A DNA stretch of 64,000 nucleotides from Stutzerimonas stutzeri (GTDB taxonomy: Bacteria; Pseudomonadota; Gammaproteobacteria; Pseudomonadales; Pseudomonadaceae): positions 124,001 through 188,000 of the forward strand of contig NZ_JAAMQZ010000003.1 of the NCBI RefSeq assembly GCF_013522825.1, read 5' to 3'. The position numbers and the translations under genes were made by a program. Positions 6,583 to 64,000 of this stretch are shown here, piece after piece (within the stretch, counting starts at the first letter, position 1; the number at the start of each line of letters is the position of its first letter). The notes below the pieces were generated by a model. That model had not been told where the DNA came from, made no database searches, and was given only the letters and a program-made list of their open reading frames with translations.

Positions 6583-7053
6583 ATGAAGTACTCCTCGATC
6601 CTGCTGTTGTCCGCCAGCCTGCTCGGCAGCAGCGCCTTTGCCGGAAGCAACACCGAAGCCGCCGTAGGTGGCGCGCTGGGAGGCGCGCTGGGTTCGGTGG
6701 TGGGCGAACATCTGGGCGGCTCCACGGGTGCAGCCATCGGTGCAGGCGTGGGCGGTGCAGCCGGCGGCATGGTCGGCGCCGACAAGCGCAGCCGTACGGA
6801 GGCGGCCATTGGCGGCGGACTGGGCGCCGCCGGTGGCAACGTGGTGGGCCAGCGCGTCGGCGGCAGCACCGGCGGGCTGATCGGCGCAGCAGTGGGCGGC
6901 GGTGCGGGCGGCGCGATAGGCAATGCCTACGGCGACGAGGATGACCACCGCTTCGACCGCCGCCGCGATGACCGCCGCTACTATGGTCCTCCCGGCAAGG
7001 CCAAGGGTCATTACAAGCACAAACATAGACACAAGCACGGCCACCGGCACTGA
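6583..7053 (+). CDS. glycine-zipper exported protein with His-rich tail
   Basis: 156 aa. A signal peptide (about residues 1-20, ending SSAFA) is followed by about 90 residues of repeated glycine-zipper blocks (GGALGGALGS, GAAIGAGVGGAAGG, GGLIGAAVGGGAGG), which in known proteins pack as membrane-associated helices. Acidic and Arg-rich linkers follow, then a basic tail with alternating Lys-His and several histidines (HKHKHRHKHGHRH). The zipper resembles bacterial YMGG/Gly-zipper envelope proteins. The His-rich tail suggests metal binding (inference). ATG has TGAGG 7 bp upstream. A hairpin terminator follows at 7136-7161. AT-rich sequence at about 6461-6495, unusual here, may hold the promoter. 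Confidence 0.85.
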   Translation: MKYSSILLLSASLLGSSAFAGSNTEAAVGGALGGALGSVVGEHLGGSTGAAIGAGVGGAAGGMVGADKRSRTEAAIGGGLGAAGGNVVGQRVGGSTGGLIGAAVGGGAGGAIGNAYGDEDDHRFDRRRDDRRYYGPPGKAKGHYKHKHRHKHGHRH

Positions 7054-7135: not shown

Positions 7136-7161
7136 AGAAAGCCCGCCGAAGCGGGCTTTCT
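7136..7161 (+). terminator. hairpin terminator after the glycine-zipper gene
   Basis: AGAAAGCCCGC (7136-7146) pairs with GCGGGCTTTCT (7151-7161) around CGAA. On the plus strand the stem ends in CTTTCTCT, a weak U-rich tail; on the minus strand CTTTTTG follows within 10 bp, so it may work both ways. Confidence 0.7.
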
Positions 7162-7592
7162 CTGACCATTCCAAATCCGTCTGAATTGCCTTCCTGGCGT
7201 GGCCGATCATCCATGATCCTGAGCGCGTCCTGCGCTGCAGAGATGGGCATAGATTAAGCCTCGTCCCGCAGCGGCTGAAGCAGCGATAAGCGCGACGGCG
7301 TGTAAGCCTTTCGCCATACCGACAGCGCCATCTTCCCGCACGGCCCATGGCCTTCCCAACTCATTGCTCACCGGACGCTCACGTTCGCGTCCCGAAGCGT
7401 GCCGGAACCATCCGCTATCATCAGCGCAATTGTTCGCGCAGCAAGTCCATCGACCGCTGCCATCAGTTTCGCATCGATGCATTCTCCTGTCACGAAGCGG
7501 GCCATTCCATTCTTTGATCTACGCTGTAGCTGAATCGCTCCGATGCGAACAGGAACACCCTGCCGTTTCTCCACCACCCAGGGAAACAGACG
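7162..7592. other. long intergenic region ahead of sdhB paralogue
   Basis: About 430 bp with no plus-strand gene. On the minus strand an open frame of 91 codons (7207-7482) has a GGAG-like site 5 bp before its ATG but resembles no family I can name, so I do not call it. A promoter for the sdhB paralogue is expected here but no convincing -35/-10 pair stands out. Confidence 0.4.
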
Positions 7593-63066: not shown

Positions 63067-63094
63067 TTTACTCGCCGCAACCAATCGCTATAAT
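63067..63094 (+). promoter_or_regulatory. promoter of tRNA-Thr
   Basis: TTTACT (63067-63072) and a perfect TATAAT (63089-63094), 16 bp apart, followed by GGCGCC. It ends 15 bp before the tRNA 5' end, as expected for a stable RNA gene. Confidence 0.7.
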
Positions 63095-63109: not shown

Positions 63110-63185
<76 letters not shown>

Positions 63186-63193
63186 TACAAATC

Positions 63194-63224
63194 AAAGGGT
63201 TACGTGAAAGCGTAGCCCTTTTTT
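63194..63224 (+). terminator. terminator of tRNA-Thr
   Basis: AAGGGTTACG pairs with CGTAGCCCTT (one G-T pair) around TGAAAG, followed by TTTT. It lies 9 bp after the CCA. Confidence 0.85.
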
Positions 63225-63549
63225 GTGCCTGAAATTTTGTCTGGGGTAGGATTGGGGTAGGGATTTGCCACCGCACCACCACTCGGTTAGAAAAAATCTG
63301 CGCCAGCATTACGACCACTCGTCAGCCCAATTCATCCGTCATCACCGATGACGCCCTCTGCATCACATCCCCCGCCATCAGAATCTAGGCACTACCAGCA
63401 TCTTGAACGCTACTCATGGTCAAAGCCTTTTTCGCCGAGATCCCGTAAAGTGCCACCTTGCAGGGCCTCTGCGGGCAGCATAGGGTGATTGGGCGGGTCG
63501 ACAGACCTGGCTTCAGGAACACAGCGCCAGAGGATTCTTGTGTCATGGT
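63225..63549. other. non-coding stretch after tRNA-Thr, possible edge of an integrated element
   Basis: About 325 bp without a supportable gene. It opens with a directly repeated GGGGTAGG (TCTGGGGTAGGATTGGGGTAGG), and its composition is less regular than the conserved regions. No integrase is visible up to the window end, so an attachment site next to the tRNA is only a suspicion. Confidence 0.35.
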
Positions 63550-63674
63550 GGCTGCATGCGGGGCGCTTCGGCGCACCGAGTTCCTTGAGTCTCGGTCTTC
63601 CACACCCGCATGCAGCCGCCACCCTTTGTGTGGAAGCGAAGGTGGCGGTCTCTTAAAACTCAAGAGATCACCCT
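63550..63674 (+). promoter_or_regulatory. structured 5' leader RNA of the DUF3077-like gene
   Basis: GGCTGCATGCGGG (63550-63562) pairs perfectly with CCCGCATGCAGCC (63605-63617), enclosing two hairpins: GCGC-TTCG-GCGC (63563-63574) and ACCGAG/CTCGGT (63575-63580 with 63591-63596). This is a three-way junction. An adjoining stem CCGCCACC/GGTGGCGG (63616-63623 with 63641-63648) follows. A last stem TCTCTT/AAGAGA (63649-63654 with 63662-63667) covers the likely ribosome binding site of the gene at 63675. Confidence 0.7.
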
Positions 63675-63980
63675 ATGCAGCAGACCAATATCCCTTCAAG
63701 CACCATCGACTCCGCTCCGCAAGCCCTCGACGCGCTCAATGGCCTGTTCACAGTTCGCAGTGACGTCACCTCCGGCCAACTGCATGACGAAGCCCAGCTT
63801 CGCCAAAACGCCGCAGTCGGCATACTCCACGCACTCTCCAGCGCAAGTGACTTGAACACCCTGGAAAACCATTTGCTTCTGGACTGCATCATGGCGCTGC
63901 GGCTGCTGTGCTCCGATGCTGCTGCGCTGTATTCGGCAGCATGCGAACGCGGCAAAGCAGAAAACCAGTCCCTGCCTTAA
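63675..63980 (+). CDS. small DUF3077-like protein
   Basis: 101 aa, no signal peptide or membrane helix. The phrase ALNGLFTVRSDVTSG ... LRQNAAVGILHALSSAS ... LLLDCIMALRLLCSDAAALYSAACERG resembles the small Pseudomonas DUF3077 proteins (LFxVRxGV..., then an Ala-rich helix), which often sit in accessory regions; the match is from memory and weak. Ribosome site AAGAGA, 7 bp before the ATG, is buried in the leader hairpin. Function unknown. Confidence 0.55.
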   Translation: MQQTNIPSSTIDSAPQALDALNGLFTVRSDVTSGQLHDEAQLRQNAAVGILHALSSASDLNTLENHLLLDCIMALRLLCSDAAALYSAACERGKAENQSLP

Positions 63981-64000
63981 TCGCCCTTGCCTACCAACTC

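Follow-up and report, generated by a model that had tools for sequence, protein, structure and literature searches.

A C4 antisense RNA that probably silences a small gene of an integrated element in Stutzerimonas stutzeri

Introduction

Why does a gene for a protein of only 101 amino acids carry an elaborately folded leader RNA? The gene (63675-63980, + strand) lies at the end of the window, as we call the whole 64,000-nucleotide stretch of the Stutzerimonas stutzeri genome analyzed here. An earlier note on this DNA had described the RNA before the gene as a long stem enclosing a UUCG hairpin and a second hairpin, followed by an 8-bp stem and a hairpin over the ribosome site, and likened it to a cis-acting switch or a stable small RNA. 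It named compensatory changes in homologous sequences as one test of the structure.

Antisense control of small phage operons offers a precedent. C4 of phages P1 and P7 pairs around the ribosome site and thereby represses the synthesis of the antirepressor (PMC12197685), and it acts in trans (PMC8546580); the P1 operon comprises c4, icd, and ant1/2, with Icd inhibiting host cell division (PMC8198154). Published work also counts C4 RNA among the substrates of RNase P (PMC11143913), describes c4 and c4-a1b1 as motifs found in Proteobacteria and phages (PMC2864571), and presents sar of P22 as an antisense RNA that blocks translation of the antirepressor mRNA (PMC12197685).

Results

The leader RNA belongs to the C4 family

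The window sequence at 63541-63626 (+ strand) matches the C4 antisense RNA family (Rfam RF01695) with 72.1 bits against a gathering cutoff of 45 (cmscan), and the alignment spans the full model, positions 1-87 of 87. C4 is the sole Rfam family above cutoff within 63400-64000; besides it, a search at E up to 1 returned one chance miRNA match in that region. A second C4 was absent from the window's genome in a whole-genome search at E up to 0.001. The possibility of a new RNA class was rejected on the full-length match and its score. Elsewhere in the window, Rfam matches mark rsmX (7136-7245, - strand) and the Pseudomonas sRNA P34 (6354-6683, - strand).

Folding places 17 base pairs in the main stem, between 63546-63562 and 63605-63621; the perfect 13-bp core (63550-63562 with 63605-63617) is extended by four pairs, one of them U-G. 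Within it lie the UUCG hairpin (63563-63574, GCGC-UUCG-GCGC) and the second hairpin (63576-63595), whose arms pair 63576-63580 with 63591-63595. The minimum-energy fold of 63541-63677 contains these three elements together with the hairpin over the Shine-Dalgarno sequence (SD hairpin), at -71.7 kcal/mol compared to a mean of -45.28 (sd 3.86) for 200 shuffled sequences (z -6.84), none of which is as stable. The stem and hairpins that the earlier note described are therefore all present where it placed them, and its idea of a discrete structured RNA before the gene is borne out; its starting point, 63550, lies 9 nt inside the Rfam span.

The fold is also visible in evolution. We aligned 43 distinct C4-plus-leader sequences, obtained from 45 loci in the genus after merging two identical pairs. 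The C4 stems have a covariation score of 0.384 versus 0.170 in shuffled alignments, 84.5% versus 71.5% of cells are paired, and 186 versus 71.3 cells are changed on both sides; 0 of 500 shuffles reach any of these values. For one of the five covariation measures, the number of further pair types, 12 of 500 shuffles do as well. Midway along the main stem the alignment has flaws: in five columns, 18-19 of the 43 sequences are unpaired. The leader hairpin is weaker, with three core pairs kept in 37-40 of 43 sequences and the others hardly at all in that alignment. The family match and the covariation show that C4 folds as a long stem with two hairpins: the RNA at this locus is a real, well-formed member of a known family in a phage-like setting.

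The locus lies in an element bordered by a tRNA gene

A tRNA-Thr gene (anticodon TGT; 63110-63185, + strand; ARAGORN) forms the left border of the element and is likely its integration site. Similarity to elements of other genomes begins just before, at, or inside this gene: in Pseudomonas sp. ZH-FAD the identity rises from ~73-75% to 99.4% at 63080, while matches of 87.5% in P. oleovorans and 88.4% in P. fluvialis begin at 63110 and 63141, respectively. The closely related S. xanthomarina resembles the window in the flanks as well. The sharp left borders in other genomes most likely mark a mobile element that adjoins tRNA-Thr or sits within it. A 440-bp cassette has identical copies in two other genomes, and in G054 the C4 and leader are the same as in the window.

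The element continues past the window, where adding 62000 to coordinates of locus L002 gives window numbering. A Cro/C1-type HTH gene on the opposite strand (63977-64240, L002:1977-2240, - strand; Pfam HTH_3, 3.9e-10) ends in the window and is followed by a 161-aa ORF, an antirepressor-type gene, a DUF6957 gene, a 114-aa ORF, and an integrase-like ORF (Pfam 0.0071, a weak match; PHROG integrase, 1.1e-6) before the contig ends at 68389. The antirepressor-type gene, about 0.8 kb after the 101-aa gene, matches PF10547 (1.6e-13, L002:2812-3540) and the PHROG anti-repressor Ant (1.4e-15), and its ATG (L002:2818) is 4 nt past the stop codon of the 161-aa ORF. A consensus scan of 63180-64000 found no sigma-70-like promoter or terminator. 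In Pseudomonas sp. ZH-FAD (L138), the match jumps at position 6944 from window 64618 to 68247, omitting the antirepressor-type gene and retaining C4 and the 101-aa gene; the jump lies near a contig end and is possibly an effect of the assembly.

For a right attachment site, the last 12-20 bases of the tRNA have no exact direct repeat between the tRNA and the contig end. The only other site in the genome with at most three mismatches to the last 35 bases of the tRNA is on contig C31 (L142, G000:C31:6345-6379); it has two mismatches, forms part of another tRNA-Thr(TGT)-like gene, and is possibly the other end of the element. This missing repeat and the weak Pfam match of the integrase-like ORF are what one might see in a decayed remnant of a prophage immunity region that is now inactive. 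We consider such decay quite unlikely, given that the stem, loops, and targets (see below) are intact and co-vary between elements and that two other genomes carry the 440-bp cassette unchanged.

The C4 loops match the leader of the following gene

Two segments of C4 have complements in the leader of the 101-aa gene. The first, b' (CTTGAGT, 63584-63590, + strand), sits in the loop of the second hairpin and matches site b (ACTCAAG, 63658-63664, + strand), which overlaps the Shine-Dalgarno sequence; the perfect pairing is just 7 bp long and is followed by an A-C mismatch. The second, a' (CTTCCACAC, 63597-63605, + strand), whose last base also ends the main stem, is complementary over 9 bp to site a (GTGTGGAAG, 63628-63636, + strand). 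The combination of a and b occurs once in the window's genome, directly behind C4. Between a and the start codon, the SD hairpin (63649-63667, + strand) pairs TCTCTT (63649-63654) with AAGAGA (63662-63667), 7 nt from the ATG at 63675, and its loop exposes part of b. The earlier note was right that the ribosome site is involved.

We scored each match as the longest perfect complementary run between a C4 segment and a leader segment. Across the 43 distinct loci of the genus, C4 segments match their own leaders with mean runs of 7.65 (b) and 7.09 (a), compared to 4.58 and 4.73 for swapped pairs. The own-leader sums, 329 for b and 305 for a, exceed the permuted maxima of 238 and 239, so that 0 of 20,000 permutations reach them; repeating the test with fixed windows gave 331 and 305 versus permuted maxima of 248 and 239. 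An SD-like motif is found in 44 of 45 leaders of the genus, and the motif alone therefore does not explain the difference between own and swapped pairs.

Loci of the nearest relatives show how the match is kept. In L040 and L140, b' and b have changed together from CTTGAGT/ACTCAAG to CTAGAGT/ACTCTAG; in L037, the a match has changed from CTTCCACAC/GTGTGGAAG to CTACCAA/TTGGTAG, again with compensation. In L029, both sides of the SD hairpin differ, CCTCT/AGAGG in place of TCTCTT/AAGAGA. Together with the covariation of the stems, these are the compensatory changes that had been set beforehand as a test. The match is uneven across loci: in the 43-locus test, L046 has no match to its own leader, and the perfect run at b is no longer than 4-5 bp in L009, L014, L015, L020, and L034.

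Between loci, the match of the C4 loops to the leader co-varies, which speaks for antisense pairing and against the sensing of a ligand. A riboswitch or an RNA thermometer that masks the ribosome site would account for the stable fold and for the hairpin over the Shine-Dalgarno sequence. A ligand pocket should, however, be conserved, and here the loops are diverse (the 43 loci carry 28 different b' and 27 different a' sequences) and vary together with their targets; in addition, C4 alone lies above the Rfam cutoff in the region. The riboswitch candidate was rejected for want of a riboswitch family match and for these same loop properties, and we regard either sensor as very improbable indeed. 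What had been read as a ligand switch or an unclassified element is instead a C4 RNA whose loops fit the leader that follows.

How often the ribosome site is masked by local structure differs among leaders. Of 98 leaders with an SD-like motif, 68 have a ribosome site that is at least 60% paired when the leader is folded alone (33/44 in the genus, 16/29 in G313, 15/16 in G302, and 4/9 in G067). Pairing of the ribosome site is thus common, not universal.

A third complementarity would allow a folding switch

Within the 3' arm of C4, the segment CCGCCACC (63616-63623, + strand) pairs through its first six bases with the 5' arm, and over all 8 bp it is complementary to a leader site, d (GGTGGCGG, 63641-63648, + strand). 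This is the 8-bp stem of the earlier note: its complementarity is there, but it competes with the main stem. Because CCGCCACC overlaps the 3' strand of the main stem, the two stems cannot both fully form, and the 8-bp stem is absent from the minimum-energy fold.

Such an arrangement could serve a C4 fold that acts solely in cis, as a part of the leader that is never released. Its own mRNA would then be switched by folding, with the 3' arm toggling between its own stem and d, or with b' and a' pairing with b and a intramolecularly. C4 and leader are adjacent on one strand, and the complementarity of the 3' arm to d is higher for own leaders than for permuted ones in the genus (6.14 versus 5.32; 0 of 5,000 permutations), with no such excess in the 5'-arm control. 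In other genomes, 1 (G302), 55 (G313), and 114 (G067) of 5,000 permutations reach the observed value. On the other hand, the effect at d is far weaker than those at a and b, the order of the sites keeps d out of one collinear duplex with a and b, and C4 of P1/P7 is reported to act in trans (PMC12197685, PMC8546580). We therefore think a cis-only mode unlikely; the d match, weaker than those at a and b, leaves room for a folding switch in cis.

A model for silencing of the 101-aa gene

Taken together, the fold and the two loop matches suggest that the C4 antisense RNA pairs with the leader and silences the 101-aa gene of the integrated element, a reading to which we assign a probability of roughly 84%. 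One transcript through 63541-63980 would carry C4 and then the leader of the 101-aa gene. The b' and a' segments, whose complementarity to b and a is observed, would form duplexes with them, and because b overlaps the Shine-Dalgarno sequence, this pairing is predicted to block translation, by analogy with P1/P7. C4 would probably be cut from the longer transcript as in P1, possibly by RNase P, and once released could act on other copies of the mRNA. This mode of action is inferred from the sequence, with good support.

Silencing of the 101-aa gene may also affect the antirepressor-type gene, which lies 0.8 kb further on, and the element would then stay quiet. This spread is the weakest step of the model because the opposite HTH gene intervenes. 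In another genome, G096, C4 matches lie about 73 nt before both of the P22_AR_N matches found in that genome.

Comparison with known systems clarifies what is shared. As in P1/P7, the RNA has the C4 fold by covariance model, its loops fit sequences around the ribosome site in the leader of the gene that follows, and an antirepressor-type gene (here PF10547, at about 0.8 kb) lies downstream in the locus. In P1, c4, the target ORF, and ant are co-directional without interruption; that c4-icd-ant layout is absent here, where the opposite-strand HTH gene at L002:1977-2240 lies before the antirepressor-type gene. Further differences from P1/P7 are that the target is a 101-aa, weakly DUF3077-like ORF and that the element borders tRNA-Thr.

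P1-type operons also carry an a1/b1 motif next to C4. At the window locus, c4-a1b1 (RF03163) has no match in 63400-64000 at E up to 1. That motif is a target working with C4; it lies upstream of C4 in L143 and L144, whereas the matching sites in the window lie downstream. In these two records, a 10-kb Pseudomonas phage (L143:2158-2360) and a P. aeruginosa plasmid (L144:2368-2570), c4-a1b1 is found shortly before C4; the records carry integrase and primase or toprim genes, and in L143 an isrK match overlaps c4-a1b1.

P22 sar, likened here by its description, shares antisense control of an antirepressor and is a different RNA. CopA/CopT-type plasmid pairs use loop-loop recognition in which variable loops give specificity, and they control replication; going by that description, the C4 locus resembles them in its proposed recognition by variable loops and differs in what is controlled.

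The product of the 101-aa gene and its relatives

The earlier note's description of the gene as unknown still stands. The product reaches 13.9 bits against DUF3077 (PF11275), below the Pfam cutoff of 21, so its likeness to that family is weak, and its PHROG and NCBIfam matches are at chance level only. Its family, A4 (7 sequences), aligns by profile comparison with A5, a group of 10 target proteins from G302 and 4 from G067, with a probability of 90.7 and E 1.3e-6; scanning the A5 members L109 and L126 singly gave no Pfam match at E up to 1. In G313, one C4 (L085) does precede a true DUF3077 protein (6.1e-32).

To look at targets more broadly we surveyed 105 loci (45 from the genus, 32 from G313, 17 from G302, and 11 from G067). 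A simple rule taking the first ORF of at least 40 aa gave an ORF for 85 of 105 loci, some clearly in the wrong frame. At 41 of the 105 loci, C4 is followed first by an ORF of less than 40 aa, owing to a misplaced start in at least five of them (L098, L112, L123, L134, and L135). At 12 loci the next frame opens 1-8 bases before the stop codon of the first ORF, an overlap that suggests coupled translation. In G302 and G313 loci such as L114, L118, and L078, a first ORF of 23-38 aa ends just within the start of the following gene.

A Pfam scan of 57 ORFs chosen from the 85 found 21 with DUF6124, 3 with Bro-N, and 2 with DUF3077, one of these being the window's weak match; in a G313 group chosen by start sequence and length, DUF6124 is found in 18 of 18. 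The idea of one common target family found no support in profile comparison, which does not link A4 to the DUF6124 group (E 0.55) and barely links it to a third group (E 0.051). At 16 loci of the genus (L003, L004, L007, L008, and others), C4 precedes ORFs of 52-61 aa that share an RLRRYN or RLSRYN motif.

These targets bear on the question of whether the locus might be a type I toxin-antitoxin pair, with a harmful small protein and C4 as the RNA antitoxin against it. An antisense RNA beside a small ORF and the many dispersed copies in some genomes (see below) would fit such a pair, as would Icd of P1, the product of a C4-controlled operon that inhibits host cell division (PMC8198154). Yet the 101-aa product has no toxin-family match in Pfam or NCBIfam, and the target proteins form several families that profile comparison does not link, leaving a toxin-antitoxin function rather improbable.

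Some genomes carry many C4 loci

C4 is found in 32 of 56 genomes of the window's genus (45 loci) and in 286 of 398 sampled genomes of the bacterial family, a sample in which copy numbers per genome are lower bounds, as no more than 10 candidates were scored in each. When six genomes were searched more fully, the matches numbered 17 (G302), 21 (G354), 32 (G313), 15 (G067), 8 (G096), and 30 (G265), 123 in total and 122 over the cutoff; these genomes were hand-picked, mostly for high scores or copy number, and are not typical. The copies are dispersed, with a median spacing of 161 kb in G313 and 256 kb in G302 and one gap below 20 kb in each.

We carried out the pairing tests on 17/17 loci of G302, 32/32 of G313, 20/21 of G354, the 20 best-scoring of 30 in G265, and 11/15 of G067, leaving out the 8 of G096. 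In G302, G313, G354, and G265, 0 of 5,000 permutations reach the own-leader match, for a and for b in each. The own leader is strictly the best for 17/17 C4s in G302, 27/32 in G313, 18/20 in G354, and 15/20 in G265; among the remaining C4s of these four genomes, one in G265 is beaten and the others tie. G067 behaves differently: 6,289 (b) and 9,951 (a) of 10,000 permutations are as good as its own-leader match, and the own leader is best for 0/11. Judged by their leaders, the C4-like RNAs of G067 must act otherwise, if at all, and so family membership alone does not prove an antisense mode. Three of these 11 RNAs (L131, L134, and L135, among L126-L136 in this 3.2-Mb genome) precede ORFs of 717-741 aa with a common N-terminus that look like type VI VgrG proteins; the scanned set, whose longest protein by far is L131, gave one match each to the phage hub, gp5 C-terminal, and type VI/baseplate OB families.

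The clean separation in G302 was initially striking, since 500 sets of 17 loci, each picked at random from 17 genomes of the window's genus, reach at most 15 (none attains 17/17). Against matched random sets drawn from the four pooled multi-copy genomes, 88, 269, 373, and 909 of 1,000 sets reach the observed values; the effect vanishes, and we make no claim of active avoidance of cross-talk. That matched sets do as well as the real ones indicates that the separateness comes from loop diversity, and not from a demonstrated selection against cross-talk.

As for their surroundings, we took the longest ORF on each side of 49 G302 and G313 loci. These 90 ORFs, some perhaps spurious, match 93 Pfam families; the 25 commonest, such as kinases, transporters, and enzymes, include no phage-specific family. 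They also match 54 PHROG families, and prophage neighbors are possible at single loci.

The copy numbers raise the prospect that C4 has a role beyond phage immunity. In some Pseudomonas-type chromosomes (17, 21, 30, and 32 matches) it may have spread as self-contained cassettes, each consisting of a C4 with its own pair of recognition loops, a leader to match, and a gene for a small protein (often DUF6124 and once a true DUF3077 in G313; a family without a name in G302), many of them amid ordinary chromosomal genes. We would give this proposal an even chance. If true, it would place C4 among the larger families of paralogous antisense pairs in one bacterial genome, with a two-part code (a and b). 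The literature on C4/RF01695 and DUF3077 that we searched, seen in part and with subscription journals mostly outside its scope, holds no account of multi-copy chromosomal C4, and the expansion may be described elsewhere; for DUF6124, that literature yielded no paper.

We consider the expansion a more interesting lead than the single locus. Its many natural pairs of loop and target would allow the evolution of antisense specificity to be studied, and they offer a handle on protein families such as DUF6124. The window's locus itself changes from an unexplained leader RNA and gene to a testable antisense pair.
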